The notes beneath the pieces were generated by a model, which did not search any database, was not told where the DNA came from, and worked only from the letters and a program-made list of their open reading frames with translations. From positions 310,001 through 374,000 of the forward strand of contig NZ_AXVM01000004.1 of NCBI RefSeq assembly GCF_000484635.1: a stretch of DNA of 64,000 nucleotides. Direction: 5' to 3'. Positions 2,093 to 60,182 of the stretch are shown one piece after another (the stretch's first letter is position 1; every line of letters starts with the position of its first letter). The position numbers and the translations under genes were made by a program. This stretch comes from Comamonas badia DSM 17552. Its GTDB lineage: Bacteria > Pseudomonadota > Gammaproteobacteria > Burkholderiales > Burkholderiaceae_C.

Positions 2093-2145
2093 AAAACTAT
2101 AGCTGCAAACGCTTGATTTGTCTGTGTTCTGGCGATGAATTGTGC
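2093..2145 (+). repeat. Dispersed palindrome, copy 1 (degenerate)
   Basis: Between dps and oxyR. The left half, ctATAGCTGCAAACGCTT (2097-2114), fits the repeat's left-arm pattern ATAGCT-N4-GCGCTT well; the right half is eroded. It lies in what should be the dps promoter region. Confidence 0.45.
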
Positions 2146-2193
2146 CAATGCCAGAGATAGCCTGCGGCAATGCAGGAGACAGCGCCCCGGGCG

Positions 2194-3159
2194 CTATCCG
2201 CCGAGCATCTGCACACCTTGCAGATCGCAGGCGTGCACCGCGTTGCGCAGCGCGGCAATCGCCTCGTAGCGCGTGAAGCTGCGCCGCCAGGCCAGCACCA
2301 CGCGCCGGCTCGGCGGCGCGGCGTCGCTCTCTTCGATGATGGGCAGATAACGGATGAAGGGCTCGTCCGAACGGCGCCGGCGCACGGTGGACAGCGCGTC
2401 GTCGGGCACCGCCAGGCGCGGCACCAGCGTCACGCCCATGCCGGCCGAGACCATGTGCTTGATGGTCTCCAGCGACGAACCCTCGAAGGTGCGGCGTATG
2501 CCTTCCGCGTTGGTCGCGTAGCGCGCAAATTCCGGGCAGACTTCCAGCACATGGTCGCGAAAGCAATGGCCGGTGCCCAGCAGCAGCATGGTTTCGTTCT
2601 TGAGCTCCAGCGCCGAAACCGATTCACGCTCGGCCAGCGGGTGGCTTGAAGGCACGGCGGCCAGAAACGGCTCGTCGTACAGCGGCGCGATCGCCAGGCC
2701 CGCATCGGGGAAGGGCTCGGCCAGGATGGCGCAATCGATCTCGCCGGTGCGCAGCATCTCCAGCAGCTTGACGGTGAAGTTCTCCTGCAGCATCAAGGGC
2801 ATCTGCGGCGTGCGCTTGAGCGACTGGCGCACCAGCTCGGGCAGCAGGTAAGGGCCTATGGTGTAGATGATGCCGAGCGTGAGCGCACCGGCCAGCGGGT
2901 CCTTGCCGCGCTTGGCGATCTCGCGGATGGATGCCGCCTGCTCCAGCACGCTTTGCGCCTGGCGCACGATTTCCTCGCCCAGCGTGGTCAGCGTCACATC
3001 GGCGGCGCTGCGCTCGAAAATCTTGACTTCCAGCTCTTCCTCCAGCTTCTTCACCGCCACCGATAGCGTGGGCTGCGCCACGAAGCAGGCCTCGGCCGCG
3101 CGGCCGAAATGCCGCTCGCGCGCCACGGCGACGATGTACTTGAGTTCAGTCAGGGTCAT
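2194..3159 (-). CDS. oxyR: Hydrogen-peroxide-sensing LysR regulator OxyR
   Basis: LysR-type regulator of 321 residues. The winged helix-turn-helix (HTH) occupies residues 1-60 ([20 protein letters not shown]), then linker helix and effector domain. The two redox cysteines sit at 199 and 208 ([14 protein letters not shown]), the same numbers as in E. coli OxyR, so this is a true peroxide sensor and not a generic LysR protein. It is followed at 150 bp by dps on the same strand. In related genomes oxyR normally sits next to recG; here an accessory patch (3186-5687) separates them. Confidence 0.96.
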
Positions 3160-3185
3160 GCCTTATCTTGCCTCAAATTGCGCCG

Positions 3186-3797
3186 TCATCGCACGATTTC
3201 TTCCTCGACCTGGCGCAACCGATCCTTGCCGAAAAACATCTCATCGCCGACGAAGAAGGTCGGAATGCCGAAAGCGCCGCGCTCATGGGCCTGCTGGGTG
3301 TTGGCCAGCAAACGCTCCTTGACATCGGCGTCCTGGCTCGCCGCGAGGATGGCCGGCGCATCGAGCCCCGCCGCCGACAGTTCGGCGGCGATGACCTGCG
3401 GGTCCGCCATGGCGCATCCGCGTTCCCACATGCTGGCGTACACCGCATCCACGTAGCGCGCAAAGCAGTTCAGCTTCTGCGCCGCCACCGCGCCGCGCAT
3501 GATCTGCAGCGTATTCACCGGGAAATGGGGGTTGAACCGGAAGGCGGTGAGCCCGTGCTTGTCCACGAAGCGCTGCATTTCCAGATGCTCGTAGGCAAGC
3601 TTGTGGGGAATGTGCGCGTAGGCCTCGACGGGCGAGCGGTTGTTGGCCATCTTGAACAGCCCGCCGAGCAGAACCGGGATGTACTCGAACCGGGCGCCGA
3701 TCCTGGCCTCCAGCTGCGGCAGGACCTTGTGGCACAGGTAGGCGTTGGGGCTGCCGAAATCAAACAGGAATTGAACGTTCTTGTTCTTGGAATGCAT
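3186..3797 (-). CDS. DsbA-family oxidoreductase, 2-hydroxychromene-2-carboxylate isomerase type
   Basis: A 203-residue protein of the thioredoxin-fold DsbA/kappa-GST group. The N-terminus FLFDFGSPNAYLCHKVLP has the Ser-Pro of the hydroxychromene-carboxylate isomerases in place of a CxxC redox pair, and the C-terminal part GAFGIPTFFVGDEMFFGKDRL contains the usual cis-Pro loop. Members act on glutathione adducts or ring-cleavage intermediates of polycyclic aromatics; the true substrate here is unknown. It ends 27 bp before the oxyR start, and lies 65 bp downstream of the SDR gene on the same strand, so the two may be one transcript within the aromatic-catabolism scar. Confidence 0.8.
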   Translation of the reverse strand: MHSKNKNVQFLFDFGSPNAYLCHKVLPQLEARIGARFEYIPVLLGGLFKMANNRSPVEAYAHIPHKLAYEHLEMQRFVDKHGLTAFRFNPHFPVNTLQIMRGAVAAQKLNCFARYVDAVYASMWERGCAMADPQVIAAELSAAGLDAPAILAASQDADVKERLLANTQQAHERGAFGIPTFFVGDEMFFGKDRLRQVEEEIVR

Positions 3798-3862
3798 GGT
3801 GTTTCCTCAAAAGATGCGGGACGGTCGAACGAGGGGCGCTGGCAGGGGCTGGAAGGCGCTGG

Positions 3863-4591
3863 TCACCATGCCTCCATCCAGGGGCGGATCTCCGTCTCGT
3901 GCGTCCAGGCGTCGCGCGGCTGCTGGTGCAGGTTCCAGTAAAGGTCGGCGATGTGCTCGGGATCGACGATGCCACCCTGGTCCTTCATCGCATAGCGCTC
4001 GGGAAAGGTGGTTCGGATGAACTCGGTGTCGATGGCGCCATCGATCACCGGGTGCGCCACGTGGATGCCCTTGGGCCAGAGCTCGCGCGCCATGCTCTGC
4101 GCCAGCGCGCGCAGCGCGTGCTTGGCGCCGGCGAAGGCGGCGAAGCCTTCACGCCCGCGCAGGCTGGCCGTGGCCCCCGTGAAGATGATGGTGCCGCGGC
4201 CGCGCGGCAGCATGGCCTTGGCGACCTCGCGGCCCATCAGAAAGCCGCCGAAGCAGGCCATCTCCCACACCTTGAAGTACACGCGCGCCGTGGTCTCGGT
4301 GATGCCGTAGCGCACGTTGGCGCCGATGTTGAACACGGCGGCCTCGATGGGAGCGATCTCGGCCTCGATCTTCTGCACCAGGGCCACCATTTCTTCTTCC
4401 TTGCGCGCGTCGCTGCCAAAGCCGTGGGCCTCGCCGCCCGCGGCGCGGATCTCCTCCACGAGTGGCGCCAGCTTGTCCGCGCTGCGGCGCGTGACGCAGG
4501 CGACATAGCCTTCGCGCGCAAAGCGCCTGGCAATGGCGCCACCGGTTGCGTCGCCAGCGCCGATGACCAGAACGGCTTTCTTTTCTGCCAT
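3863..4591 (-). CDS. Short-chain dehydrogenase/reductase lacking the catalytic Tyr
   Basis: A 242-residue SDR with Rossmann glycine motif GAGDATGGAI at residues 11-20 and the conserved NIGAN (residues 88-92). The active-site Ser region is FTGATASLRG, but where the family has YxxxK the sequence reads FAGAK (residues 153-157), so the catalytic Tyr is Phe. I recall a subgroup of SDRs with Phe at this place, so this may be ancestral and not damage. The start at 4591 follows a GGGGAAA-type ribosome site; the longer open frame upstream reads out of the LysR fragment and is not coding here. Substrate unknown. Confidence 0.8.
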   Translation of the reverse strand: MAEKKAVLVIGAGDATGGAIARRFAREGYVACVTRRSADKLAPLVEEIRAAGGEAHGFGSDARKEEEMVALVQKIEAEIAPIEAAVFNIGANVRYGITETTARVYFKVWEMACFGGFLMGREVAKAMLPRGRGTIIFTGATASLRGREGFAAFAGAKHALRALAQSMARELWPKGIHVAHPVIDGAIDTEFIRTTFPERYAMKDQGGIVDPEHIADLYWNLHQQPRDAWTHETEIRPWMEAW

Positions 4592-4670
4592 GGGGTTTCC
4601 CCTTTTCCTGTTCCCTTGCACGACCGCGAATGCGGACAACACGCATCTGCAGCCCGAATTCTCCAGCGTC

Positions 4671-4915
4671 CTACTGGCTTGCCGATTCCCGTTGACGGAA
4701 CGTCTGGATGGATGCGAGAAACTCCTTGAGCACGGACGACGGGTCACCCCGTCTGAACATGCAGCGCAGATCCACATATGCCGACGGCTCGTCATTGAAG
4801 GGAAGATACACCACGCCCGGCGCCTTGAGTGCACTGACGGACTGCGGCACCAGTGCGATCCCCATGCCGCCGGCCACATGCGCCATGCCTAGACTCGGTC
4901 GCACTAGGTTGATCA
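4671..4915 (-). pseudogene. LysR-type regulator, C-terminal fragment
   Basis: About 80 residues on the minus strand match the end of a LysR effector domain: GMAHVAGGMGIALVPQSV, then a VVYLPF strand, LRCMFRRGDPSSVLKEFLAS and a stop at 4671. Upstream of about 4915 the similarity stops abruptly and the sequence belongs to a ferredoxin read from the other strand, so the DNA-binding domain and most of the sensor domain are gone. It sits upstream of the SDR gene at 3863-4591 as a divergent or local regulator would. A relic, unlikely to make a functional protein. Confidence 0.7.
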
Positions 4916-4935
4916 CGGGATTCCGGGAGCGCGGC

Positions 4936-5127
4936 ATGGACCAGTACGAAATCAGCATTCTCGAGACCAGCGAGACGGTGCGATGCAGCCCGGGGCAATC
5001 CATTCTGGACGGCATCGTCACGCTGGGCCGCAAAGGCATCCCGACGGGCTGCCGCGGCGGTGGCGGTGGCGTCTGCAAGGTGGAAATCCTCGGCGGCTGC
5101 TATGCACGCAGGCCCATGAGCCGGGCA
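4936..5127 (+). pseudogene. Plant-type [2Fe-2S] ferredoxin fragment
   Basis: Reads MDQYEISILETSETVRC from ATG 4936, then GIPTGCRGGGGGVCKVEI and a run ending RRPMSRA. This matches the small ferredoxins (DmpQ/XylT type) that reactivate catechol 2,3-dioxygenase in meta-cleavage operons. The cluster motif should read CRGGGCGVC; here the middle Cys is Gly, so the iron-sulfur cluster cannot be complete. After MSRA (about 5127) the frame leaves the family and the last conserved Cys is missing. A truncated, inactive relic. Confidence 0.72.
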
Positions 5128-5243
5128 ATCACGCGGGCACGCAGGTGGCCTGGGCGCTGGAAATGCTGCTGGCACCCGAAGCCGCGGCCATGACCGGCTC
5201 GTCGCTTATGCTGGATGCGGGCCGCAGGCGCGGCTTGCCTTGA
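5120..5243 (+). pseudogene. C-terminal fragment of a second short-chain dehydrogenase
   Basis: In a different frame from the ferredoxin relic, the sequence reads VAWALEMLLAPEAAAM then TGSSLMLDAG and stops at 5243. This is the typical SDR ending (residues preceding VDGG), about 35 residues. The rest of the gene is missing: the join with the ferredoxin lies near 5120-5130. It gives a second deletion point inside the scar, just before the intact tautomerase. Confidence 0.5.
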
Positions 5244-5255
5244 AAGACACTCACC

Positions 5256-5687: not shown

Positions 5688-7797
5688 GGAATTCCGCCCG
5701 CCCACCCAGCCAGCGCTCGATGTGCGCCTGCGCCAGCGCCGGGTAGCGCGCCAGCATCTGCGGCGCCACCGCGCGCGCCCAATCGAGCAAGGCGCCGTCC
5801 TGCGCCAGATCGGCGAAGCGCAGCATCGCGTCGCCCGACTGGCGCGCCCCGAGGAACTCGCCCGGGCCGCGGATGTCCAGATCGCGGCGCGCGATCTCGA
5901 AGCCGTCGTGGGTTTGCAGCATGGCCTTGAGCCGCTCGCGCGCCGCCTGCGCCAGATGCCCGCTCTCGCCTCTGGCGTACAGCAGCACGCAGGCCGAGGC
6001 CGCCGCGCCGCGCCCCACGCGCCCGCGCAACTGGTGCAGTTGCGAGAGGCCAAAGCGCTCGGCATGGTCGATCACCATCAGGCTGGCGTTGGGCACGTCC
6101 ACGCCCACCTCGATCACCGTGGTGCTCACCAGCACGGCCGTCCGCCCCGCCTTGAAACCCTCCATCACCGCCTGCTTTTCGCCCGCTGGCATGCGCGAAT
6201 GCAGCAAACCCACCGAGGCGCCCGGCAGCGCCTCGGCCAACTCGGCGTGGGTGGCGGTGGCGTTGGTCAGGTCCAGCGCCTCGCTTTCCTCGATCAGCGG
6301 GCAGACCCAGTAGGCCTGCCGGCCCCGCGCCACCTGCTGCGCCAGGCGCGCAATGACTTCATCGCGCCGGCTGTCGGCGATCAGGCGCGTGACGACAGGC
6401 GTGCGCCCCGGTGGCAATTCATCCAGCGTGGAGACATCCAGATCGGCGTAATAGCTCATCGCCAGCGTGCGCGGAATGGGCGTGGCGGTCATCATCAGAA
6501 GGTGCGGCTCCATCTCCCCGCCGGCGGTTTTTTGCCGCAGTGCCAGGCGCTGGGCGACGCCAAAGCGATGCTGCTCATCGATCACCGCCAGGCCCAGGCG
6601 GGCGAACCGCACCTGCTGCTGGATCACCGCATGCGTGCCCACCACCAGCGCCGCCGCGCCCTGTGCAATCGCCTCCAGCGCCGTGGCGCGCTCCTTCTTT
6701 TTCTGCCCGCCGACCAGCCAGGCGACGCATTGCCCGCGCGCCTGCAAGAGCGGCTGCAGCCACTGCACCAGCTTGGCAAAGTGCTGGCTGGCCAGGATTT
6801 CGGTGGGCGCCATCAGCGCGCATTGCCAGCCCGCATCCATCGCGCGCGCCGCCGCCAGCGCCGCCACCACGGTCTTGCCCGCGCCCACATCGCCCTGCAG
6901 CAGGCGGTGCATGGGCTGGGGGCGCGCCAGGTCGTGCGCGATCTCGCGGCCCACGCGCTGCTGCGCGCCGGTGAGTGCAAACGGCAGCGCGGCCATCAGC
7001 CCCGCATGCAGGCTGCCCGCACCGTCACCCGGCGCCAGCACCGGCGCCCGCAAACGCGCACGTTCGGCGCGCGACCGGCATTGCGAGAGCTGCTGCGCCA
7101 GCAGTTCCTCGGCCTTCAGTCGCTGCCAGGCGGGATGGCTGTGGTCCTCCAGCGTGGCCAGCGCCACGTCGGGTGCGGGGTGGTGCAAAAAAAGGAGTGC
7201 TTCGCGCAAGCTCCATATGTGCAAATGGCCATTTTGACCATGAACGGCAAGCGGCGGCACCGGCCACTCGGGTGCCAGCGTTTCATCCAGCCGCACACGC
7301 GTGAGCGCCATGGCCACCGCGCGGCGCAGATAGGCCTGCGGCAGTTGCGCCGTGCTCGGGTACACCGGCGTGAGTGCCGCGGGCAACGGTCCTTCGGCCT
7401 TGCGAAACGCCGGATGCAACATCTGCCGTCCCCAGAAGCCGCCGCGCACCTCGCCGCGTGCGCGCAGGCGCTCGCCCACCGCCATGGTTTTCTGCTGCGA
7501 CGGGTAGAAGCTGAAGAAGCGCAGCTCGCAGCGCCCCGTGCCATCGTCGAGAACCACGACGAGCTGGCGGCGCGGGCGCAGCTGCACGCTGCAATCGAGC
7601 ACCGTGCCCTCGATCTGCGCCACCTCGCCTTCGCGGGCGTTTCTGATCGGCGTGATGCGCGTCTCGTCCTCGTAGCGCAGCGGCAGGTGCAGCGCCAGGT
7701 CGATGTCGCGCACCAGGCCAAGCCTGGCCAGCGCGCGCTGCGCCGGGCTCTGGTTCGGCTTCGCCGATTTGGGTGAAACAGCTGGTAACTTGCCCAC
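5677..7797 (-). CDS. recG: ATP-dependent DNA helicase RecG
   Basis: A 706-residue superfamily-2 helicase that rewinds and regresses stalled replication forks and Holliday junctions. The wedge (OB-fold) domain lies in about 60-180, Walker A is GDVGAGKTVV, the DExH box reads DEQH (VIDEQHRFGV), and the helicase C domain ends with QLRGRVGRG. Around residues 185-205 (7187-7245 on the plus strand) the reading frame passes through a copy of the dispersed palindrome, coding for AVHGQNGHLHIW just before the family segment LREALLFLHHP. The frame stays open through it. Divergent from the HD-GYP gene. Confidence 0.95.
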   Translation of the reverse strand: MGKLPAVSPKSAKPNQSPAQRALARLGLVRDIDLALHLPLRYEDETRITPIRNAREGEVAQIEGTVLDCSVQLRPRRQLVVVLDDGTGRCELRFFSFYPSQQKTMAVGERLRARGEVRGGFWGRQMLHPAFRKAEGPLPAALTPVYPSTAQLPQAYLRRAVAMALTRVRLDETLAPEWPVPPLAVHGQNGHLHIWSLREALLFLHHPAPDVALATLEDHSHPAWQRLKAEELLAQQLSQCRSRAERARLRAPVLAPGDGAGSLHAGLMAALPFALTGAQQRVGREIAHDLARPQPMHRLLQGDVGAGKTVVAALAAARAMDAGWQCALMAPTEILASQHFAKLVQWLQPLLQARGQCVAWLVGGQKKKERATALEAIAQGAAALVVGTHAVIQQQVRFARLGLAVIDEQHRFGVAQRLALRQKTAGGEMEPHLLMMTATPIPRTLAMSYYADLDVSTLDELPPGRTPVVTRLIADSRRDEVIARLAQQVARGRQAYWVCPLIEESEALDLTNATATHAELAEALPGASVGLLHSRMPAGEKQAVMEGFKAGRTAVLVSTTVIEVGVDVPNASLMVIDHAERFGLSQLHQLRGRVGRGAAASACVLLYARGESGHLAQAARERLKAMLQTHDGFEIARRDLDIRGPGEFLGARQSGDAMLRFADLAQDGALLDWARAVAPQMLARYPALAQAHIERWLGGRAEFLKA
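7187..7245 (+). repeat. Dispersed palindrome, copy 2 (inside recG)
   Basis: An A-run, then GTGCTT, a GCGCAAGC core and CTCCATATGTGCAAATGGCC followed by ATTTTGACC. Right half and flanks match the other copies (compare 41400-41459). It is antisense to recG and coded through without a stop. Confidence 0.5.
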
Positions 7798-7811
7798 GCA
7801 AAGAGGCTACC

Positions 7812-9125: not shown

Positions 9126-9163
9126 CCCTTTGTTGCATTGGCGCGCTCCTGCGCGCCCATCCC

Positions 9164-10258: not shown

Positions 10259-10285
10259 GCCAGGCGTCCGGCACGCTTTTCAGGG

Positions 10286-14229: not shown

Positions 14230-14311
14230 GTATCAAATTGTGAACATCTGTCAAGCCCGGCGCAAGCACCCCCGGGACAGAATGCGGACTGCTTCTGAAA
14301 AACAGAACGAA

Positions 14312-14356
14312 AAAGCCGATTTGCGCTTTACAGGAAAGCGCAAGAAGCTATTTTTT
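14312..14356 (-). repeat. Dispersed palindrome, copy 3
   Basis: Read on the minus strand: AAAAAATAGCTTCTTGCGCT, a short loop, then AAAGCGCAAATCGGC and a T-run. Both arms (TTGCGCTTT and AAAGCGCAA) are intact, giving a near-perfect hairpin. Intergenic, between the PAS-GGDEF gene and the GGDEF relic. Confidence 0.8.
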
Positions 14357-14379
14357 CTATAGTATTGCAATACCATCGA

Positions 14380-16532: not shown

Positions 16533-16542
16533 GGAATTCTCC

Positions 16543-16600
16543 TTTTGATAGCTGCTGGCGCTTTACCTATAAGCGCCAAAGCCTGGTTTGTCTTGAAATT
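16543..16600 (+). repeat. Dispersed palindrome, copy 4 (between trpG and trpD)
   Basis: TTTTGATAGCTGCTGGCGCT, loop, then AAGCGCCAAAGCC and a T-rich tail ending TCTTGAAATT. One of the best-preserved copies. It fills the only non-overlapping junction of the trp cluster and reaches the first base of the trpG stop. Confidence 0.85.
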
Positions 16601-17169
16601 CAGCGCTGCTCCAGAAAGTTGCGCAGCAGCGCATGGCCGTGTTCGGTGAGGATGCTCTCGGGGTGAAACTGCACGCCCTCGACCGCCAGTTCGCGGTGGC
16701 GCACGCCCTGGATCTCGCCATCCTCGCTGGTGGCGGTAACGAGGAGGCATGGCGGCAGAGTGCCCTGCGCAATCGCCAGCGAGTGGTAGCGGTTGACGGT
16801 GAACTGCTTCGGCAACCCGGCGAACACGCCTTTCTCATCGGTGGTGATGACGCTGGTCTTGCCGTGCATCTGCTGCCCGGCGCGCACCACCTCGCCGCCA
16901 AACGCCTCGGCTATCGCCTGGTGGCCCAGGCACACACCCAGCAGCGGAATCCTGCCGGCGAAGTGGCGGATCGCCTCCACCGAAATCCCCGCTTCCTTGG
17001 GCGAGCAGGGGCCGGGCGAGATGACGAGGCGATCCGGCGTGCGTTCTGCGATGTCCTGGAGGCTGGTTTCGTCGTTCCGCACCACCGCAACTTCCGCGCC
17101 GAGCTCGCCGAAATACTGCACCAGGTTGAAGGTGAAGCTGTCGTAGTTGTCGATCATGAGGAGTTTCAT
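16600..17169 (-). CDS. trpG: Anthranilate synthase glutamine amidotransferase subunit
   Basis: Supplies ammonia from glutamine to TrpE. 189 residues, class-I amidotransferase: oxyanion segment [11 protein letters not shown], nucleophile in [16 protein letters not shown], and catalytic His/Glu in [10 protein letters not shown]. The start ATG 17169 ([15 protein letters not shown]) overlaps the trpE stop by four bases, so TrpE and TrpG are translationally coupled; longer frames upstream lack similarity. Its last codons abut repeat copy 4. Confidence 0.97.
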
Positions 17170-23895: not shown

Positions 23896-24894
23896 ATGGG
23901 CGAATTCGACCTGATCGCACGCCATTTCACGCGCCCGGCAAGGCGCGCAGCCCTGGGCGTGGGCGACGACTGCGCCCTGCTGGCGCCGGCGCCCGGCATG
24001 CAGTTGGCGATTTCCAGCGACATGCTGGTCGAAGGACGCCACTTCTTTGCCGGCACCGACCCCGAGGCGCTGGGCCACAAGGCGCTGGCGGTCAATCTCT
24101 CTGATCTGGCCGCCTGCGGCGCCAGGCCGCTGGCGTTCACACTGGCGCTGGCGCTGCCACAGGCAGACGACGCTTGGCTGGCCGCCTTTGCGCGCGGCCT
24201 GCTCACGCTCGCCGATGCGCACGGCTGCGAGCTGATCGGCGGGGATACCACCGCCGGACCGCTCAATATCTGCATCACCGTGTTTGGCGAAGTGCCACCG
24301 GGCGATGCCCTCAGGCGCAGCGGCGCACGGCCGGGCGACGACCTCTGGGTCAGCGGCAGCCCGGGGCAGGCGCGCCTGGCGCTGGGGGCGCTGCGCGGCG
24401 AATGGGCCTTAGCCGATGCCGCTCTCGCAGCACTGCGCCCGCGGCTGGAGCGCACCACGCCGCGCGTGGCGCTGGGCCTGGCGCTGCGCGGCATCGCCAG
24501 CAGCGCGATCGACATCAGCGACGGGCTGCTGGGCGATTTGCGGCATGTGCTGGATCGCTCGCGTGCCGGGGCTACCGTATATGCGGAAGACGCAACGTTA
24601 TTGATAGCTTCAAACGCTCATACACAAAGCGCTGGAGGCAATTTTTATACCGATTTATTCGCAACGATCAGCCACAAGACCCTGCAGCAATGTGTACTGG
24701 CGGGCGGCGATGATTACGAACTGCTATTCACCGCTGCACCCGCGCAGCGGGCCGCGATCGAGGCCGCAGGGCAACACGCAGACACCCGCGTGACGCGCAT
24801 CGGGCAGATCACCTCAGCGCCGGGGCTGCGCGTGGTCGATGCGCAAGGCGCAGCGCTGGCAGAGCGCTTTGCCTCCTTCGATCACTTCGCGTGA
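23896..24894 (+). CDS. thiL: Thiamine-monophosphate kinase
   Basis: Phosphorylates thiamine monophosphate to thiamine diphosphate. 332 residues, AIR-synthase fold: GEFDLIARHF, LGVGDDCALLA, DMLVEGRHF, ALAVNLSDLAACGA, LIGGDTT, SSAIDISDGLLGDL and AGGDDYELLFTA. Between ATVYAEDA and the GGDDYE motif there is an AT-rich segment (LLIASNAHTQSAGGNFYT, about 24596-24652) that I do not recognise from ThiL. It coincides exactly with repeat copy 5, so the repeat is translated in frame as an extra surface loop. Convergent with the DUF169 gene, one base between stops. Confidence 0.94.
   Translation: MGEFDLIARHFTRPARRAALGVGDDCALLAPAPGMQLAISSDMLVEGRHFFAGTDPEALGHKALAVNLSDLAACGARPLAFTLALALPQADDAWLAAFARGLLTLADAHGCELIGGDTTAGPLNICITVFGEVPPGDALRRSGARPGDDLWVSGSPGQARLALGALRGEWALADAALAALRPRLERTTPRVALGLALRGIASSAIDISDGLLGDLRHVLDRSRAGATVYAEDATLLIASNAHTQSAGGNFYTDLFATISHKTLQQCVLAGGDDYELLFTAAPAQRAAIEAAGQHADTRVTRIGQITSAPGLRVVDAQGAALAERFASFDHFA
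24596..24652 (+). repeat. Dispersed palindrome, copy 5 (inside thiL)
   Basis: GTTATTGATAGCTTCAAACG, loop, then AAAGCGCTGGAGGCAATTTT. The sharp AT-rich contrast with the surrounding gene and the match to the other copies' order of blocks indicate an insertion that kept the reading frame. Confidence 0.75.
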
Positions 24895-27990: not shown

Positions 27991-29082
27991 ATGGCCACCA
28001 TCCGGCAATCGCTTGCCACCGCCCTGACCCTGGCCGCCGCCATGGTCCTCTGCGGCACTGTTTCAGCGGCGGGTACCAGCCAGCAGGTGGAGATGGTGGA
28101 TGCGCAGGGCTTCGGGCAGCCGATGACCGCGGCCACGCTCCAGGTGCCCAGGGGCTGGCGAACCCAGGGCGGCGTCAACTGGCAGCGCGGCGACGCCTGC
28201 GTGAGCAACCAGATGCGCATCGCCTGGGTCGCCACCAGCCCCCGGGACGATGAAGCCTTTGAAGTCATGCACCCCTACGCGTGGCAGGTGCAGGGCCGCA
28301 GCATCCAGATGAATCCCTGCCCGGTGATGGCCGTCGCCTCGGCACGCGCTTTTCTGATGGCGGTGGTGCAGCAGCGCCGCCCCGGCGCACGCGTGCTGAA
28401 CTACAGCGATCGCGCGGACATCGTCGCCAGCGCCACGTCCCAGGCACCGCCGCCGCAGAACGGCATGCAGCGCAGGATCGAGGCGGGCGAAGTGGTGATT
28501 GCCTACGCAGGCTCGGGCGGCAGCGAGATCCAGGAACGGCTGTGGACCAGCGTCACCTTCACGGCAATGCAGAACTCGCTGATGGGCAATGCCGGCACCG
28601 TCTACGCCCATCGCCGCCTGGGCGGCGCGCCGGACCGTGCGGTGAGCGACCGCATCGTCGCTTCGATGAAGACCAATCCAGCCTGGATGGCCAAGGTGAG
28701 CGAAGCCAGCCAGCGCTTCGTGCAGACGCACTCCGCCAACCAGAGCCGCCAGATCCAGCAATGGCATGCGGGCGAGATGGCGCGCATCAACGCCAAGGGC
28801 GCGGCGGACAGGGCAGCCATCCGCTCCCAGACCCAGCGCGACATCGCCAACATCCACAACCAGACCCAGGCCAACACGCAGGCGACGAACGACCGCATCC
28901 AGCGGCGCACGCTGGAGGGCGTGGGCGAATACAACACCTACAGCAACACCGCGGGCGAGCCGGTGCGCTCCAGCATCCACGGCGGCGACCGCGTGCTGCA
29001 GCACCCCGATGGGACCTACAGCAGCACCAGCGACCCCTACTACCAGCCGCCGGGCAGCGTCGAACTGCAACGGGTGCGCTGA
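27991..29082 (+). CDS. Secreted protein of unknown function
   Basis: A 363-residue protein with signal peptide (MATIRQSLATALTLAAAMVL, then CGTVSAAG) and GGGAGGA before the ATG. The N-terminal half has a typical soluble domain (TAATLQVPRGWRTQGGVNWQ, FTAMQNSLMGNAGTVYAHRR). Residues about 240-310 are Gln/Asn/Arg-rich and helical, and the end (VGEYNTYSNTAGEPVRSSIH, then HPDGTYSSTSDPYYQPPGS) is low-complexity. No family recognised. It separates pgpA from pncC. Confidence 0.7.
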   Translation: MATIRQSLATALTLAAAMVLCGTVSAAGTSQQVEMVDAQGFGQPMTAATLQVPRGWRTQGGVNWQRGDACVSNQMRIAWVATSPRDDEAFEVMHPYAWQVQGRSIQMNPCPVMAVASARAFLMAVVQQRRPGARVLNYSDRADIVASATSQAPPPQNGMQRRIEAGEVVIAYAGSGGSEIQERLWTSVTFTAMQNSLMGNAGTVYAHRRLGGAPDRAVSDRIVASMKTNPAWMAKVSEASQRFVQTHSANQSRQIQQWHAGEMARINAKGAADRAAIRSQTQRDIANIHNQTQANTQATNDRIQRRTLEGVGEYNTYSNTAGEPVRSSIHGGDRVLQHPDGTYSSTSDPYYQPPGSVELQRVR

Positions 29083-29109: not shown

Positions 29110-29625
29110 ATGTCACTACAAAATAATGAGCTTTCAGCGCATGCCCAGCATGCACTGGAGCCACTTTTAGCTCAAATCTCCAATGCACTGCTCGCGCGTG
29201 GCCAGATGCTGGCCACGGCCGAAAGCTGCACCGGCGGGCTGATCGCCGCGGCCTGCACCGAACTCGCGGGCTCCAGCCAATGGTTTGAACGCGGTTTCGT
29301 CACCTATTCCAACGCCGCAAAGGCTGAGCTGCTTGGCGTGCCGGCGGCGCTGATCGAGCAGCAGGGCGCCGTCAGCGAGCCCGTGGCGCGCGCAATGGCG
29401 GAGGGGGCCATCCAGCATTCGGCTGCCCAGGCAAGTCTTTCCGTCACCGGCATCGCCGGCCCGACGGGCGGCAGTGCCGACAAGCCCGTGGGCACGGTCT
29501 GGTTTGGCTGGCGGGTTGACGAGCGCACGCACAGCGAGGTGCGGCACTTCGCCGGCGACCGCGCCGCCGTGCGCGCGGCGACCGTGCAGCATGCGCTGGC
29601 GCGGCTCGCCGCGCTCCTCGGCTGA
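29110..29625 (+). CDS. pncC: Nicotinamide-nucleotide amidohydrolase (CinA C-terminal domain)
   Basis: Recycles NMN by deamidation to NaMN. A stand-alone 171-residue CinA C-terminal domain: LATAESCTGGLIAAACTELA (active-site Ser), FVTYSNAAKAELLGV, AVSEPVARAMAEGA and VTGIAGPTGGSADKPVGTVW. The start ATG 29110 gives MSLQNNELSAHAQHALEPLL; this N-terminal stretch corresponds to repeat copy 6 and is not typical of the family, whose similarity begins around LLAQISNALLARG. So the translation start probably lies in or beside an inserted repeat. Confidence 0.93.
   Translation: MSLQNNELSAHAQHALEPLLAQISNALLARGQMLATAESCTGGLIAAACTELAGSSQWFERGFVTYSNAAKAELLGVPAALIEQQGAVSEPVARAMAEGAIQHSAAQASLSVTGIAGPTGGSADKPVGTVWFGWRVDERTHSEVRHFAGDRAAVRAATVQHALARLAALLG
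29118..29176 (+). repeat. Dispersed palindrome, copy 6 (first codons of pncC)
   Basis: AAAATAATGAGCTTTCAGCG, core CATGCCCAGCATG, then CACTGGAGCCACTTTTAGCT. The right half (ctGGAGCC-A-CTTTT) matches copies 5 and 10. It begins eight bases after the ATG and codes for about 20 residues. Confidence 0.6.
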
Positions 29626-33662: not shown

Positions 33663-34493
33663 ATGCCCGAACACGCCCGCACCGTTGATTACGCCGCCTT
33701 TCTCGCCCGGCAGGCACCGCTGCAATCGGTGCCGTTGGCCGCATACGAGTGGCAAGGGGAGCGTGTCTGGCTCAGGCGCGGCGCGTACGGTCACCGCGGC
33801 CTGCGCCGCCGCCTGCTGGGGCTGATCGCTCGCGCCGCGCGGCTGCCCATGCTGCGGCCCTCGCCCCCGGCGGATGCGCGCACCGCCATGGCCAACGAAC
33901 GCGCACGCCTTCAAGCGTTCTCGGCCCGCGGCATCCGCGTGCCCCGCGTGCTGGCGTCCGCCGACGACGCCTTCCTGATGAGCGACCTGCGCGGCAGCAG
34001 GCCCGGCGCCCCGTCGCTGCACCAGGAGATCGAAGCCGCCATGCCCGCCGGCAGCGGCGCCATGCTCACGCTCTGGCAGCAGGGGCTGCGGGCGCTGGAT
34101 ACCGCGCATGCGCAAGGGCTGTGCGTGGGCCGGGCGTTCGCGCACGCCATGGTGCGCTGCCCGGATGGCGTGATCGGCTTCACCGATCTGCGCGACGACC
34201 CTGCCGCCGCGCTGGCGCTGGCGCCGGCGCAGGGGCAGGCGCGCGATGCGCTGGCCTATCTGTTCTCCACGGCTGGCCTGCTGCACCTGGCGGGCGCGCG
34301 CGATCCGGCGCGGGCGCTGTGGGCCCAGTGGCTCGCCCAGCCGGTGCGCGGCGATGCGTTTCGCGCCGCGGTGCAGCAGGCCGCCACGCGCCTGGCCTGG
34401 CTGCGCTACCTGCCGCCCGACCAGCGCTGGGGGCACGCTGCGTGGCAGCTGCGCGCCGCCTACGAACAAGCAACGAAACTACAATATGAATAG
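33663..34493 (+). CDS. Kinase-like (Bud32/lipopolysaccharide-kinase-type) protein
   Basis: A 276-residue protein resembling bacterial atypical kinases. A possible catalytic loop is AHAQGLCVGRAFAHAMV (normally H-G-R/D..N) followed by GVIGFTDLRDDP, in the position of DFG. The nucleotide-binding end is FLMSDLRGSRPG. The catalytic HxD-like residues are poorly preserved, so activity is uncertain. The stop codon TAG (34491-34493) is supplied by the ATAGCT of repeat copy 7. Divergent from the activator gene. Confidence 0.65.
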   Translation: MPEHARTVDYAAFLARQAPLQSVPLAAYEWQGERVWLRRGAYGHRGLRRRLLGLIARAARLPMLRPSPPADARTAMANERARLQAFSARGIRVPRVLASADDAFLMSDLRGSRPGAPSLHQEIEAAMPAGSGAMLTLWQQGLRALDTAHAQGLCVGRAFAHAMVRCPDGVIGFTDLRDDPAAALALAPAQGQARDALAYLFSTAGLLHLAGARDPARALWAQWLAQPVRGDAFRAAVQQAATRLAWLRYLPPDQRWGHAAWQLRAAYEQATKLQYE

Positions 34494-34535
34494 CTGACAG
34501 CGTACGTCAGATAAGCGCAAACACGGTTTATTTAT
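34484..34535 (+). repeat. Dispersed palindrome, copy 7
   Basis: AATATGAATAGCTGACAGCG, TACGTCAG, then ATAAGCGCAAACACGG and a T-rich tail. It begins inside the last codons of the kinase-like gene, provides its stop, and ends just before the MAPEG gene's ribosome site. Confidence 0.8.
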
Positions 34536-40909: not shown

Positions 40910-41401
40910 ATGCCCGAAACCCTGGCAGGCGCCTGCGCTTCGCCCTCCGCCACCCCCTACGACGCGAACAGCAGCATTGGCCGGCAGTTGCGCCGCCTGG
41001 TGACGCAGCTGGCATCCACGGTGGACCGCCGCATGGAGCCTCTGGGGCTGACCGACGCGCAATGGCGTCCGCTGCTGTGCCTGCTGCATGGCTCGCCCGC
41101 CACCGCATCCGAGCTGGCGCGCCGCTGCGGCCTGGATACCGGCGGGCTCACGCGGCTGGTGGACCGGCTGCTGGCCAAGGGCCTGTGCCAGCGCGAGCGC
41201 TGCCGCACCGACCGGCGCGTGGTGGAAATCTCGCTCACGCCGGAAGGCGAGCGCGTGGCCACCCAGCTGCCCGGCATGCTCACCCAGGTGCAGCACGAAC
41301 TGCTGCACGGCTTCAGCAGCGCCGAGGAAGCGCAGCTGCGCGCCATGCTCGCCCGGCTGCAGGACAACGCCATGGCGCTGGACCAGCCACAAAAAAACTG
41401 A
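40910..41401 (+). CDS. MarR-family regulator of the efflux genes
   Basis: A 163-residue winged-helix repressor: SIGRQLRRLVTQLASTVDRR, PLGLTDAQWRPLLCLLHGSP, HTH SELARRCGLDTGGLTRLVDR, wing CRTDRRVVEISLTPEG. It is placed before emrA-emrB, as MarR proteins that control such pumps often are, so it most likely represses them and itself. Ninety-six bp and repeat copy 8 separate it from emrA. Confidence 0.9.
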   Translation: MPETLAGACASPSATPYDANSSIGRQLRRLVTQLASTVDRRMEPLGLTDAQWRPLLCLLHGSPATASELARRCGLDTGGLTRLVDRLLAKGLCQRERCRTDRRVVEISLTPEGERVATQLPGMLTQVQHELLHGFSSAEEAQLRAMLARLQDNAMALDQPQKN

Positions 41402-41459
41402 AGCAAAACCGGCATTTGCGCATATCCATCAAGCGCTGACAGCTATCTTTTTCAAATCA
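41400..41459 (-). repeat. Dispersed palindrome, copy 8
   Basis: On the minus strand AAAAAGATAGCTGTCAGCGC then TTGATGGATATGCGCAAATG and a CCGGTTTTGC tail. It starts in the stop codon of marR and fills most of the marR-emrA gap. Confidence 0.8.
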
Positions 41460-45788: not shown

Positions 45789-46457
45789 TCAGGGCTGTTC
45801 CAGCCACTGCGCCACTTCATCCGCCAATTGCCCGGCCGCTTCGGCCAGCGCCTTGGCACCGCCGGCGGCGTCCGGTGTCGCTGCCGGGCGCTGCACGACA
45901 AAGAGCCTCTGGGACAGCAAGCGCTCACCGCCGTGCGTGCTGCGCGCCAGCGAGGCCCGCAAGCGCGCCAGCGCGTGGCTGGTCTGCGGCGCATCGAACA
46001 CCTGGCTGAACTCCTCCAACTGCAGGCGCAGCACCTCGGGCCGCGCGCCATCGGCAAGGCGCACACCCACGCCACCCTCGGTCAGCACCGCCCGCCTCTG
46101 GCCCAGACGCTCGCGCAGCGCCTGCGTCAAAAGCTGCGCCGGCGGCTGGCTCCAGCGCGCGTCGCGGTAGGGGCGCAACTGCTGCGCGTTGGCATAGGCC
46201 AGGCGGTAATTCAGCCCGCTGTCGGCGTCCGGCATGCCGGTGCTCACCACATCCGCCAGCACGATCGCGTGTGCGGCGGCCGGTGCGGCAGGGGCCGACG
46301 CCGCCTGCTGGCCGGGTCCGAAGTCATACACCTCGGCGCGCACCGGCGGCTGCGGCAGTGATGAGCAGGCCGCCATGGCGAGTGAAAAAATCAGGCAAAA
46401 ACCCGCTTTTGCGCTTGTATGGAAAGCGCCAATAGCTACTTTTTTTGAATACGCCAT
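45789..46457 (-). CDS. Outer-membrane lipoprotein of an Mla/Pqi-type transporter
   Basis: A 222-residue ABC-type transport auxiliary lipoprotein (PqiC-like). The lipobox is AMAAC near residue 31. The signal peptide (MAYSKKVAIGAFHTSAKAGF, then CLIFSLAMAAC) is coded largely by repeat copy 9 (46393-46451), an odd origin for a signal sequence: the lysines and the hydrophobic run come from the repeat's two arms. ATG 46457 has GAGGAG eight bases upstream. Last gene of the transporter operon, 11 bp after the MCE gene. Confidence 0.85.
   Translation of the reverse strand: MAYSKKVAIGAFHTSAKAGFCLIFSLAMAACSSLPQPPVRAEVYDFGPGQQAASAPAAPAAAHAIVLADVVSTGMPDADSGLNYRLAYANAQQLRPYRDARWSQPPAQLLTQALRERLGQRRAVLTEGGVGVRLADGARPEVLRLQLEEFSQVFDAPQTSHALARLRASLARSTHGGERLLSQRLFVVQRPAATPDAAGGAKALAEAAGQLADEVAQWLEQP
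46393..46451 (-). repeat. Dispersed palindrome, copy 9 (in a signal peptide)
   Basis: On the minus strand AAAAAAAGTAGCTATTGGCG, then CTTTCCATACAAGCGC and AAAAGCGGGTTTTTGCC. It is translated as the signal peptide of the lipoprotein gene, starting two codons after the ATG. Confidence 0.75.
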
Positions 46458-46468
46458 GCAAATTCTCC

Positions 46469-47446
46469 TCATCGTGCGGCGGAGGGCGCCGCAAAGCCCG
46501 GTTCGCCCGGTCCGGGGGCAACGCGCGGCGGGCCGTAGATCAGGCTCTGCGGGTTGTCGCCCACGCCCGCAGCGACACGGCCCAGGCGCCGGGCGGCCTG
46601 TGCGGTTTCATTCGCAGCGCGATCCAATTGCGGCAGGGTGCGGTCGCCAAAGCGTTCGGCGACCCCGGTGAGCGCGCGCGCGCCCTGGCCTGCCTCGTGC
46701 AGCACGCCGCTGGGCGCATTGAGCGAGCGCACCATCTGCCCCGCGTCGGCCGCGGTCTGCGCGGTATTGACCCCGGCATCGCGCAGCGCCTGCAGGGCCT
46801 GGCGCGTCTGGCCCAGCAGCGCCGGCAGCTGTGCGATGGCGGGGTCGAGGCCGCTGGTCACGCTGTGGTTCAGGCTCAGCGCCAGCCGGTCGATGTTCTG
46901 CGCCGCCGTGCCCAGGCGTGCCAGCAGGCCGGAAAACGCCTGCAGGTTGTCGTCGCTCAGCAGGTGGTTGACGCGCTCCATCGCCTCCTGCACCTTGCCC
47001 AGCAGCAGCGGCCCCTGCTCGGCCAGCTGGCTGAAGGGCGAGGACTGCATCGGGATGCGCGGCAGGCCGTCGGCGCCCGGCGGAATTTTCTCGAACGGCT
47101 TGTCCGCGTCGTTGAGCAGGATGTGCGCCAGCCCGGTCACCCCCTGGTAGCCCAGCGTGGCATAGGTGGTGGGACTGATAGGCGCGTTGCTGTCCACGTC
47201 GATGCGGATCACCACGCGGCCAGGCGTCTTGGGGTCGAAGCCGATCGCGAGCACGCGCCCCGCCGGCACGCCCTTGTAGCGCACCGCCGCCTGCGGCTGC
47301 AGGCCGCTGACGTTCTCGGTGGTGGTGAGCTCGTAGCTCGTGTGCGGTATTTCGTCGCTCGATATCCAGTAGCCCAGCACCACCAGCAGCGCCCCGATGA
47401 GGACGATGAAGAGGCCCGCGGCGAGGGCATGTGCCTTGTTTTCCAT
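46469..47446 (-). CDS. MCE/MlaD-domain substrate-binding protein
   Basis: A 325-residue periplasmic protein anchored by one N-terminal helix (HALAAGLFIVLIGALLVVLG), followed by the MCE domain (VSGLQPQAAVRYKGVPAGRV, ATLGYQGVTGLAHILL) and a long helical tail (about 150-300) that probably forms the lipid tunnel. Component of a phospholipid transport system between the membranes. Its start shares one base with the ATPase stop (TGATG). Confidence 0.92.
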   Translation of the reverse strand: MENKAHALAAGLFIVLIGALLVVLGYWISSDEIPHTSYELTTTENVSGLQPQAAVRYKGVPAGRVLAIGFDPKTPGRVVIRIDVDSNAPISPTTYATLGYQGVTGLAHILLNDADKPFEKIPPGADGLPRIPMQSSPFSQLAEQGPLLLGKVQEAMERVNHLLSDDNLQAFSGLLARLGTAAQNIDRLALSLNHSVTSGLDPAIAQLPALLGQTRQALQALRDAGVNTAQTAADAGQMVRSLNAPSGVLHEAGQGARALTGVAERFGDRTLPQLDRAANETAQAARRLGRVAAGVGDNPQSLIYGPPRVAPGPGEPGFAAPSAAR

Positions 47447-49373: not shown

Positions 49374-49545
49374 GGGTGCGAGTGTCACACAAGCGCGGCG
49401 GCGCAACGGCGCGGCTCTGCGCAAACAGGTGGATCGCGCATATGGTACAAGCGCAGGCAACTATGAATTCAATAGTGTCATGGTTTTTTGCCGGACCCGC
49501 CGCGCGCGACGCACAATCGCCGGGTATCCGCAAAGGCTCCGCCCC

Positions 49546-51399: not shown

Positions 51400-51437
51400 C
51401 GCCCCCATTGCGATCGCCCGCTGCGACAATCGCGGCG

Positions 51438-52196: not shown

Positions 52197-52229
52197 CCCA
52201 GTGAGCCGGCAGTCGGCCGCCTCACTGGG
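52197..52229. terminator. Hairpin between convergent tauE-like and mrdA genes
   Basis: CCCAGTGAG (52197-52205) pairs with CTCACTGGG (52221-52229) across a 15-base loop that itself contains GCCG/CGGC. It overlaps the mrdA stop. No T-run on either side, so termination may need Rho. Confidence 0.5.
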
Positions 52230-55618: not shown

Positions 55619-55655
55619 GGATGCAGCCCCCGCCCCCCGCGCCCGCCAATCCGGA

Positions 55656-56777
<1,122 letters not shown>

Positions 56778-56902
56778 TCAATGACCAGCGCGGCGCGGGG
56801 TATTGCGGCAAAGCTCGGATAATACTGCATCCCTGTGTATAACTTGGCTCTCTCTACAGCCGATTGCATTGTTTTGCAAGCGGTTACGACGCCGCCCCAC
56901 CC

Positions 56903-57202
56903 ATGGCACTGACCCCCGAAGACATCACGCGCATCGCCCGGCTGGCGCGGCTTGAATTGAGCGACGCCGAAGCCGATCGCATGCGCAGCACGATCAACGA
57001 TTTTTTTGGCATCGTCGCGCAGATGCAGGCGGTGGACACCACGGGCGTGAAACCCCTGGCCCACCCCCTGTCGGCCGTGCAGCAGGTAGCGCTGCGCCTG
57101 ATGAACGACGCGGTGAGCGAGCCCAACGAGCGCGAAGCCTATCTCGCCAACGCCCCTGCGGCCGAGCGCGGCCTGTTCCTCGTGCCACGCGTGATCGAGT
57201 GA
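56903..57202 (+). CDS. gatC: Glu-tRNA(Gln)/Asp-tRNA(Asn) amidotransferase subunit C
   Basis: A 99-residue belt subunit that wraps GatA and GatB. Family pattern: [45 protein letters not shown] and the terminal LVPRVIE. A TATAAC -10-like element lies about 70 bp upstream in the divergent mreB-gatC region. gatA follows after 4 bp. Confidence 0.95.
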
Positions 57203-57206
57203 CGCC

Positions 57207-58694
57207 ATGAACACCGAACTGCATCAAATGGGCGTGGCCGCGCTGGCCGCGCAACTGCACCACAAACACATCAGCAGCGTGGAGGCGGCGCAGCACTTCC
57301 TGGCACGCGCGCGCCAGCGCCAGAGCCTGGCGGCCTTTCTGGCGATCGACGAAGAAGCCACCCTGACCCAGGCACGCGCGCAGGATGCGCTGATTGCCAG
57401 AGGCGAAGGCGGGCCGCTGGCGGGCGTGCCCATCGCGCACAAGGACGTCTTCGTCACGCGCGACTTCACCACCACCGCCGCCAGCAAGATGCTCGCGGGC
57501 TACCGCTCGCCGTTTGATGCCACCATCGTGCGCAATCTGGCGCAGGCCGGCTGCGTGACGCTGGGCAAGCTCGCCTGCGACGAATTCGCCATGGGCGGCG
57601 CCAGCGAGAACGTGGGCACTCCGGCCATGGGTTTTGAGGCACCGCAGCCGGTGCGCAACCCCTGGGACACCGCGCGCGTGCCCGGCGGCTCCTCGGGCGG
57701 GTCTTCGAGCGCCGTGGCCGCGCGCCTGACGCCCGCCGCCACCGGCAGCGACACCGGCGGCTCGATCCGCCAGCCCGCCGGTTTCTGCGGCATCACCGGC
57801 ATCAAGCCCACCTACGGACGCGCCAGCCGCTACGGCATGATCGCCTACGCTTCGAGCCTGGACCAGGCAGGGGCGCTCGGGCGCTCTGCCGAAGACTGCG
57901 CGCTCATACTCTCCGCCATGTGCGGACCGGATGTGATGCACGACGCGACCAGCGTCGATCGCCCGGCCGAGGACTACACGCAGGCCTTGGGCCAGCCGCT
58001 TGATGGCCTGCGCATCGGCGTACCGCAGGAGTTCTTCGGTGAAGGTCTGGCCCCGGACGTACGCGCAGCCATCGACGCCGCGCTTGCCGAATACGAAAAG
58101 CTCGGCGCCCGGCGCGTGGCGATCTCGCTGCCGCGCACGCATCTCTCGGTGCCGGTCTACTACATCATCAGCCCGGCCGAGGCCAGTTCCAACCTCTCGC
58201 GCTTCGATGGCGTGCGCTACGGCCACCGCGCCGACAAGTACACCGACCTGCTGGACATGTACCAGAAGAGCCGCGCCGAGGGCTTCGGCGAGGAGGTCAA
58301 GCGCCGCATCATGATCGGCGCCTACGTGCTCTCTGCAGGCTATTACGACGCCTACTACCTGCAGGCGCAGAAGATCCGGCGCCTGATCGCCGACGACTTC
58401 CAGCAGGCGTTCAAGGCGTGCGACGTGATCGCCGGGCCCGTGGCGCCGACGGTGGCCCCCGCCATAGGCGCGCAGACCGACCCGGTGACGAACTACCTCG
58501 CGGACGTCTACACCCTGCCCGCCTCGCTCGCGGGCCTGCCCGGGCTCTCGCACCCCGTGGGCCTGGGCGCGCATGGCATGCCCGTGGGCCTGCAGCTCAT
58601 CGCCAACCATTTCCAGGAAGGGCGGCTCCTGAACGCGGCGCACGCCTTCCAGCAGGCGACGGACTTTCACCTGCGCCAGCCCGAGGGTTTCTGA
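57207..58694 (+). CDS. gatA: Amidotransferase subunit A
   Basis: Glutaminase/amidase subunit of 495 residues that releases ammonia from glutamine for Gln-tRNA(Gln) (and Asn-tRNA(Asn)) formation. The Ser-cisSer-Lys triad is present: K79 (IAHKDVFV), the [15 protein letters not shown] loop around 161-173 and [17 protein letters not shown] (nucleophile about S186). Two bases separate it from the gatB start. Confidence 0.97.
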
Positions 58695-58696
58695 AC

Positions 58697-60142
58697 ATGA
58701 CCACACCACTCATCGCAGGCTACGAAGTCGTGATCGGCTTCGAGACGCACACCCAGCTGGCCACCGTCTCCAAGATTTTCAGCCGCGCCTCCACGGCTTT
58801 TGGCGCCGAACCCAACACGCACACCAGCCCGGTCGATCTGGCGCTGCCTGGCGCACTGCCGGTGATGAACCGGAAGGCAGTGGAATGCGCTATCAAATTG
58901 GGATTGGCACTCGGCTCCCACATTGCGCCAGAGAGCATTTTTGCGCGCAAGAATTATTTCTACCCTGATCTGCCCAAGGGCTACCAGATCAGCCAGTTCG
59001 AGATTCCCGTGGTGCAGGGCGGCAGCGTCTCGTTCTACCTCGGCGAGGAAAAGAAGACCGTGCGCCTGGTGCGCGCGCACCTGGAGGAAGACGCGGGCAA
59101 GAGCCTGCACGAGGACTTCATCGGCCAGTCCGGGATCGACCTGAACCGCGCGGGCACGCCGCTGCTGGAGATCGTGACCGAGCCGGACATGCATTCGAGC
59201 GCCGAAGCCGTGGCCTATGCCAAGGCGCTGCACCAGATCGTCACCTGGATAGGCATCTGCGACGGCAACATGCAGGAAGGTTCGTTTCGCTGCGATGCCA
59301 ACGTCTCGGTGAGGAAGCCCGGCGAGCCGCTGGGCACACGCCGCGAGATCAAGAACCTGAATTCGTTCAAGAACATGCAGCTGGCGATCGACTACGAGAT
59401 CCGCTGGCAGATCGAGCAGCTCGAAGACGGCCACGCGATCCGCCAGGCCACGGTGCTGTTCAACCCCGACACCGGCGAAACGCGCGCCATGCGCACCAAG
59501 GAAGACGCCGCCGATTACCGCTACTTCCCCGACCCCGACCTGCCGCCCCTGGTGATTGCCGAGGACTGGATTGCGCAGGTGAAGGCCGGCATGCCCGAGC
59601 TGCCGCAGCACATGGCCGCGCGTTTTGTAGAGCAGTACAACCTGCCCGAATACGACGCCACCACGCTCACGCAGAGCCGGGCGATGGCGGCCTACTTCGA
59701 AGAGACAGCGCAGGCCTGCGGCCAGGCCAAGCTGGCGAGCAACTGGGTGATGGGCGAGATTTCGCGGCGCCTGAACCTCGAAGAGATCACCATGGAGGCG
59801 GTCAAGGTTTCGAGCCTCCAGCTGGCGCAGCTCATCACCCGCATCCACGACGGCACGATCTCCAACAACGCGGGCAAGCAGGTGTTCGAGGCGCTGTGGA
59901 GCGGCGAAGGCAGCGACGTCGATGCGCTGATCGCCGCCAAGGGCCTCAAGCAGATGAACGACAGCGGCGCGCTGGAGGCAATCATCGCCGAGGTGATCGC
60001 CGCCAACCCCGCCAACGTCGAGCAGTTCAAGGCGGGCAAAGACAAGGCCTTCAATGCCCTGGTCGGCCAGGCCATGAAAGCGAGCAAGGGTAAGGCCAAC
60101 CCGCAGCAGGTCAACGAGCTTTTAAAGGCCAAATTGGCCTGA
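58697..60142 (+). CDS. gatB: Amidotransferase subunit B
   Basis: 481-residue kinase/transamidase subunit: [62 protein letters not shown], and the C-terminal YqeY-like tail. The last codons (LLKAKLA and the stop) run into repeat copy 10, whose GGCCAAATTGGCC supplies them, but the length and ending are normal for the family. The AT-rich stretch near 58885-58955 is conserved GatB sequence. Confidence 0.97.
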
Positions 60143-60182
60143 ACCACTTGACCAGCAAGCGTCAGGAGCTATCAAAATTCAG
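60123..60182 (-). repeat. Dispersed palindrome, copy 10 (gatB 3' end)
   Basis: On the minus strand GAATTTTGATAGCTCCTGAC, GCTTGCTGGTCAAG, then CAGGCCAATTTGGCCTTTAA. It covers the end of gatB and the space to the next, convergent gene's stop. Confidence 0.8.

Follow-up and report, generated by a model that had tools for sequence, protein, structure and literature searches.

Dispersed bacterial palindromes are usually viewed as selfish or species-specific. In enterobacteria, sites of the REP/BIME type (repetitive extragenic palindromes and bacterial interspersed mosaic elements) bind gyrase or IHF, and gyrase-binding BIMEs, matS and Chi are protein sites distributed over the whole chromosome. 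Here, we describe a repeated element in a 64,000-nucleotide stretch of Comamonas badia DSM 17552 (contig NZ_AXVM01000004.1, positions 310,001 to 374,000; called the window below), in which an earlier note had reported ten copies of an imperfect palindrome of approximately 55 bp. The element, which is conserved in position among relatives, probably represents an ancient family of approximately 66-bp fixed cis elements, and one copy lies within a gene that we take to be thiL (thiamine-monophosphate kinase; AIR synthase-related according to Pfam). It shares with gyrase-binding BIMEs, matS and Chi the occupation of many fixed short sites, some of them in genes, which are kept as nucleotides. Unlike these, it is longer, composite and biased to gene 3′ ends, and the protein that it would bind is putative.

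Among described repeats, units of the GTAG and CGTC REP families measure 20-40 bp and carry a GTAG or CGTC tag at the palindrome end, and they share with the present element a high copy number, an imperfect palindrome, a location in tandem and convergent gaps downstream of genes, and the presence of some copies in genes (Di Nocera 2013, PMC3733652). The element differs in its length of 66 bp, in the scarcity of tags (GTAG in 22, CTAC in 12, CGTC in 1 and GACG in 2 of 412 copies, a set defined below), in that no cognate REP-associated tyrosine transposase (RAYT) was identified, and in a place conserved across genera at least in thiL. Membership of the GTAG/CGTC families was considered and rejected on tag and size, although the co-directional and convergent placement agrees with it. 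The Beta-proteobacterial repeat element (BRE), which is 75-91 bp long, has 69% G+C in Bordetella and is often tandem, is likewise dispersed in Bordetella and some Comamonadaceae, usually in intergenic regions and sometimes in coding sequence (Hot 2011, PMC3110155). With 66 bp, 46% G+C and mostly single copies, the present element is set apart from BRE by size, base composition and arrangement rather than by alignment. No description of the element was found in the open-access literature searched, in which a string search reaches only sequences printed in full text and two of the queries covered the 15 best of 256 and of 37 titles. Rfam gave no match in the window at the gathering score, and in five other loci it gave three microRNA-family matches below that score; a single site in L263 accounts for all three.

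When up to two mismatches are allowed, the core ATAGCT-N4-GCGCTT-N7-AAGCGC is found at 159 sites in the 3.68-Mb genome, 80 on the forward and 79 on the reverse strand, compared with a single site for the same pattern read backwards. The dispersed AT-rich imperfect palindrome with ordered blocks is thus real, as the earlier note had claimed, and well above chance, and a genome-wide profile scan of the kind that it had proposed found at least 150 matches (counts of 150 per genome being lower bounds). This sequence-only profile was built from a 71-column ungapped alignment of 70 copies chosen with no more than one core mismatch; on average, two of these copies are 55% identical, and the most similar two agree in 53 of 71 columns. 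Loose fuzzy matching of the core was unspecific (22 matches in the window compared with 9-58 in ten simulated sequences) and was replaced by profiles. In an ungapped stack of 30 exact copies of this genome and 130 of other genomes, conserved columns run from approximately -12 to +53, counted from the A of ATAGCT, and the flanks beyond are unconserved, so that the length is nearer 66 than 55 bp. Block spacing is fixed across copies, the majority consensus of 93 copies of the genome is nctnnnnaattgATAGCTgccaGCGCTTgnnngncAAGCGCtnnagcCnnnTTTnnntnnaa, and the conserved blocks that remain unpaired are ATAGCT, CT at -11/-10, GCC and TTT. A larger set of 412 copies (matrix score of at least 20, 7-base loop only), less biased than the training set, comprises 93 copies of the genome itself, 194 of named loci, 87 of genus relatives and 38 of G015 and G146; these copies are not independent, since orthologues and loci fetched for a matching core are included. 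Their mean G+C is 0.455. In G015 (C1:1018214-1018609), three consecutive copies follow each other at a spacing of approximately 164 bp.

Conservation in place was examined in genus relatives across 221 kb around the window. Where the genome itself has an element (score of at least 20), relatives carry one (cut-off 16) in 36 of 46 comparisons, compared with 4 of 351 at junctions where it has none; a single cut-off of 20 on both sides gives 34/46 and 2/351. The 46 comparisons involve 11 junctions in six relatives and thus lack independence; at 9 of the 11 junctions, at least one relative has the element. The strand is the same in 34 of the 36 shared copies. Of the four cases in which only the relative has an element, two fall at the junction of the decayed copy near 2093 listed below. 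Named-genome loci (73-84% identity; genus not verified) offer a softer test, as they were fetched for holding an element and read from coordinates: 11 of 16 pairs aligned on both flanks have the element at the matching junction, and one more is ambiguous. In five distant genus relatives (83-84% gene identity), the 23 conserved columns are 76-90% identical and the variable columns 45-51%, compared with 37% for unrelated copies, and between this genome and G201 the values are 46% for variable columns (unrelated 37%) and 79% for conserved columns (unrelated 79%). An element conserved in place by relatives in this way probably does a job.

The window holds nine clear copies, one of which (49,436) was absent from the earlier list. 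A position matrix with a cut-off of 10 gives 9 matches in the window, whereas the window read in reverse and 396 kb of relatives' sequence treated likewise give none. The features are as follows, with scores of a covariance model (CM) or of the matrix; genes were called by our own codon-usage script trained on the window, and gene-context counts are approximate.

2080-2150, plus strand: decayed copy between genes 1538-2044 (minus) and 2194-3159 (minus)
14298-14364, minus strand: copy in a 444-bp gap between two minus-strand genes; CM 38.9 bits; in the training alignment
16535-16601, plus strand: copy that takes up the whole of a 67-bp gap separating two minus-strand genes; CM 49.6 bits; in the training alignment
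23896-24894, plus strand: open reading frame of presumed thiL holding the intragenic copy; Pfam PF00586 (E 1.4e-30) and PF02769 (E 1.7e-7)
24592-24656, plus strand: copy within the thiL frame, 22 codons from residue 232; CM 21.0 bits (from 24,596), matrix 44.8
29115-29180, plus strand: copy between genes 27991-29082 (plus) and 29206-29625 (plus), arms GCGCAT/ATGCAC; CM 29.2 bits (29,129), matrix 44
34477-34533, plus strand: copy giving the upstream gene, as called, its stop (TAG of ATAGCT); CM 14.6 bits, E 0.0012, matrix 28
41393-41457, minus strand: copy at the stop of the upstream one of two plus-strand genes, between which it lies; CM 46.2 bits
46386-46448, minus strand: copy between genes 45789-46343 (minus) and 46469-47446 (minus); CM 33.9 bits
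49412-49477, minus strand: additional copy between divergent genes; CM 18.6 bits, E 6.5e-5 (49,436), matrix 22
60122-60177, minus strand: copy between convergent genes, the plus-strand gene ending within it; CM 21.5 bits

Eight of the ten copies first reported are supported; one of the ten, 24,592-24,656, is not intergenic but lies inside thiL. The copy proposed at 7187 reaches only 2.4 bits over part of the site, within a predicted gene, and is not supported. The copy at 2093 is weak by itself (CM 8.6 bits, E 0.086, 2093-2117 only), but is read as decayed because, of four relatives, G202 and G095 reach scores of 20 and 19, respectively, at the same junction (none in G196 and G201); a further relative, G204, has none there. 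The element is found at the same place and orientation in 6/6 genus relatives at 16,535 (G200 being without it) and at the same place and strand in 5/5 relatives at 41,393. Among mapped relatives, it is present in 4/4 at 46,386, 4/4 at 60,122, 3/4 at 49,412 and 3/5 at 34,477, the weakest of the supported copies first reported, and the junction orthologous to 14,298 lacks it in G202, G196 and G201.

The thiL copy allows selection on nucleotides to be separated from selection on protein. The gene was obtained from 29 of 30 genomes searched; leaving out the split gene of G003 and adding five in hand gave 33 genes, with carriers and non-carriers defined by the core pattern at up to one mismatch, except for genus members known by profile only. 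At a score of at least 16, thiL of 22 of 25 readable carriers, in 13 genera, has the element as the same insertion, at one codon and in one frame (the others being G200, G190 and G146), compared with none of 8 non-carriers, six of which have a clearly shorter loop at this position. The copy is hence older than the split of the 13 genera. ATA and GCT, which thiL otherwise avoids, are abundant in the element: ATA encodes 19 of 27 Ile residues compared with 5 of 193 in the rest of thiL (p 6.6e-17), and GCT 60 of 101 Ala residues compared with 34 of 1174 (p 7.5e-51). Because the 22 genes share a common descent, these Fisher p values overstate independence; in addition, the counts for the rest of thiL include the final 4 of the element's 22 codons. 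Third-position G+C (GC3) is 0.38 in the element and 0.87 elsewhere in the gene. The codons TTG ATA GCT are kept in 17, 18 and 18 of the 22 genes, respectively, and the encoded peptide varies at many positions; the blocks are thus conserved as something other than ordinary gene or promoter sequence, a distinction on which the earlier note had made its proposal depend. In carriers that have lost the motif, GC3 of the loop is higher (G146 0.76, G200 0.77, G190 1.00) than in seven motif-keeping genus members (0.46-0.67), and in G190 a loop of nearly the same length and similar peptide is recoded to GC3 1.00. This codon usage shows selection on the nucleotides of the thiL element. Further conserved in-gene sites are likely represented by L180 and L309, and by L299 and L306, in which in-gene copies encode near-identical peptides in relatives.

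In a sample of the GTDB family, 45 of 200 genomes have a match with no more than one mismatch, with counts up to 535, and counts differ strongly within genera (535 vs 19, 182 vs 8); part of this difference reflects divergence, since the 19-copy genome gives 110 matches by a laxer profile. Outside the family, 4 of 146 genomes of the order have 1-4 matches, which is at chance level because the reversed control matches 6 genomes. In the genomes sampled, an excess over chance is therefore confined to one GTDB family. Among the matches listed (80 of at least 120 stretches, including metagenome-assembled genomes with odd labels), named carriers include Acidovorax, Simplicispira, Giesbergeria, Comamonas, Ottowia, Alicycliphilus and Rhodoferax and are mainly Comamonadaceae, the group in which the earlier note had placed similar motifs; one metagenome-assembled genome of Bacteroidaceae among them is probably contamination. 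Plasmids gave no match to one copy used as query, a weak test since copies differ. Within the genus, G200 (listed with 5% contamination) has only 22 profile matches compared with 146 to at least 150 in seven other members, a near-complete loss that would fit a course of events in which a trans-acting partner disappeared and the copies then decayed.

The element is also found in phages. Seventy-four viral-contig stretches contain the exact core, 73 of which also score at least 25. In L343 and L360 (IMG/VR, of L329-L402), the element stands downstream of a RecT-like gene and upstream of a RecE-like exonuclease gene, with a stop 14-15 nt before the core and an ATG 55 nt after the core start, and this spacing recurs in several other contigs. 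An anti-repressor gene precedes it in L354 and L386, and a hairpin with a T run was seen by eye after it. Some other viral-contig copies may be prophage flanks of host DNA.

With roughly even confidence, we rank first a DNA-level site for a putative protein, and second an RNA role. The element would once have spread and afterwards been inherited in place, with purifying selection on its nucleotide sequence keeping it. It may work as double-stranded DNA, in the form of a composite site (CT...ATAGCT, GCGCTT-N7-AAGCGC, GCC and a short A/T run) to which a putative protein of these bacteria would bind, and its probable role, by analogy with REP/BIME, would be in chromosome architecture or topology near gene ends. 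The DNA level is favored because of the conservation in thiL, where a terminator or 3′-end signal in mid-gene would be harmful, because orientation is free of transcription (128 copies ++ and 114 --), and because loop words are equal on both strands. The words TGG or CCA occur in 215 of the 412 loops (78 expected), 110 and 105 times by direction and unrelated to transcription; they would be the same in duplex DNA and different in RNA.

Several observations weigh against this reading. The use of AGC for Ser is no different in the thiL element (27/50) and elsewhere in thiL (152/288). The thiL loop of the non-carrier G064 is AT-rich (GC3 0.28, score 13), so that AT-rich codons are not always a sign of an intact element. 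Presence in relatives was called with a family-trained matrix, which inflates conservation in the kept columns and makes thiL the stronger test. Within the element, the run at +39..41 prefers one strand, with TTT in 354 of 412 copies and AAA in 54, but it does not follow transcription. Weak covariation was found at two of ten stem pairs tested in the 412 copies, 14-24 (p <0.001) and 10-28 (p 0.017), and a few orthologue pairs, by eye, have double changes that preserve pairing. Finally, the avoidance of divergent gaps and the hugging of stop codons suit an RNA or 3′-end role as well.

That role, in which a hairpin transcribed downstream of the stop would serve to protect the upstream message, to process it or to terminate it in part, ranks first among the alternatives, although we consider it rather unlikely. 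In the genome itself, 63 of 70 copies fall between called genes, with 49 in tandem, 9 in convergent and 5 in divergent gaps. The 412 copies comprise 337 intergenic ones (242 tandem, 73 convergent and 22 divergent; convergent vs divergent p 1.5e-7), 62 within predicted genes and 13 with one neighbor missing; 10 of the 62 are at a gene edge, and 49 of the other 52 lie in three of six frames. The element frequently occupies the entire gap and may itself provide the stop codon. The median distance between stop codons and its edge is 0-8 bp, and in roomy tandem gaps it is closer to the stop 54 times and to the start 27 times. The mean folding energy of the 412 copies is -15.1 kcal/mol compared with -9.0 for 200 mononucleotide-shuffled sequences. 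The settings of the phage copies, which are flanked by recT-like and recE-like genes or by an anti-repressor gene and an apparent canonical terminator, would also suit a transcribed element. However, conservation within the thiL coding frame is difficult to reconcile with such a function, a wobble bias to the transcribed strand is absent (47 vs 43), and loop direction is independent of transcription. In the 70-copy alignment, the consensus RNA structure has 4 pairs, no compensatory change and nothing beyond shuffles; arm covariation could not show in this set because copies were chosen with no more than one core mismatch. Palindromes flanking the core on the left and right show no covariation above expectation.

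It is unlikely that the element is a mobile relic of REP/REPIN or miniature inverted-repeat transposable element type that persists by inertia. Hundreds of copies with one fixed layout imply past spread, and Y1 transposase genes, the point of resemblance to systems with RAYTs (Nunvar 2010, PMC2817692), are common in the family, mostly in single copy, and present in many element carriers. With Y1_Tnp in 16 of 20 carriers the RAYT hypothesis looked promising, but it fell since 19 of 24 non-carriers searched have Y1_Tnp too. The genome itself has no Y1_Tnp match at E 0.001, in a search limited to PF01797. Among the 24 Y1 loci, 10 had no Y1 frame recognized by motif and were uninformative; at 12 readable carrier loci, the element adjoins the gene on one side at most, in place of the two inverted copies that would surround a RAYT gene, and follows its stop codon in 5, and several of the Y1 genes at L407, L408 and L419-L430 are flanked by another inverted repeat, GGGGTCAGA. 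No transposase was seen in the element itself, as in the earlier note. The mobile repeat implied at that time does not agree with copies inherited at fixed, old places with constrained motif columns. The 18 candidate empty sites are too diverged for the ends to be read, and a target duplication could not be made out in them.

Still less probable is a palindrome kept by mutation, with template switching at hairpins correcting the arms and no selection involved. This idea draws on the loop heptamers (+16..+22), which form 326 reverse-complement pairs compared with 1 reversed and 1 complemented, and on unrelated copies, which share loops equally both ways (9.1% same, 8.1% inverted). Between orthologues, by contrast, inversions are few: 49 loops are the same, 7 inverted and 98 other, with 47 of unclear arms and 10 of opposite orientation set aside. 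Template switching also leaves unexplained the conserved unpaired blocks and the recoding of thiL after element loss. As an observation on its own, the loop pattern looks as if the core flips in place, clear orthologue inversions being 7 of 154 with clear arms.

A canonical bidirectional intrinsic terminator is very improbable: a GC hairpin bordered left and right by A/T runs, the preference for convergent gaps and the rarity of canonical terminators just past elements (3 of 388 gene ends) or in element gaps around the window (0/14 compared with 5/76 element-free gaps, divergent gaps excluded) speak for it, but only 2 of 337 intergenic copies fit the canonical hairpin and T-run rule (by a strict scanner that missed one of two test strings), and copies lie in the middle of thiL and within the phage recombination gene pair.

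Returning to the DNA-level site, a wider and more tentative reading is that of a family-wide DNA address system, in which a composite 66-bp site at up to several hundred places, carried also by phages, would be read by a putative protein, and at least one species has lost nearly all of its copies. The thiL copy provides a codon-level test, across 13 genera, of nucleotide selection on a dispersed repeat. In addition, element-rich and element-poor sisters (G200 vs its genus, G146 vs G015, G178 vs G072) make a trans-acting factor testable by gene content, and if the address system is true, the near-wholesale loss in one species could reveal the reader protein.

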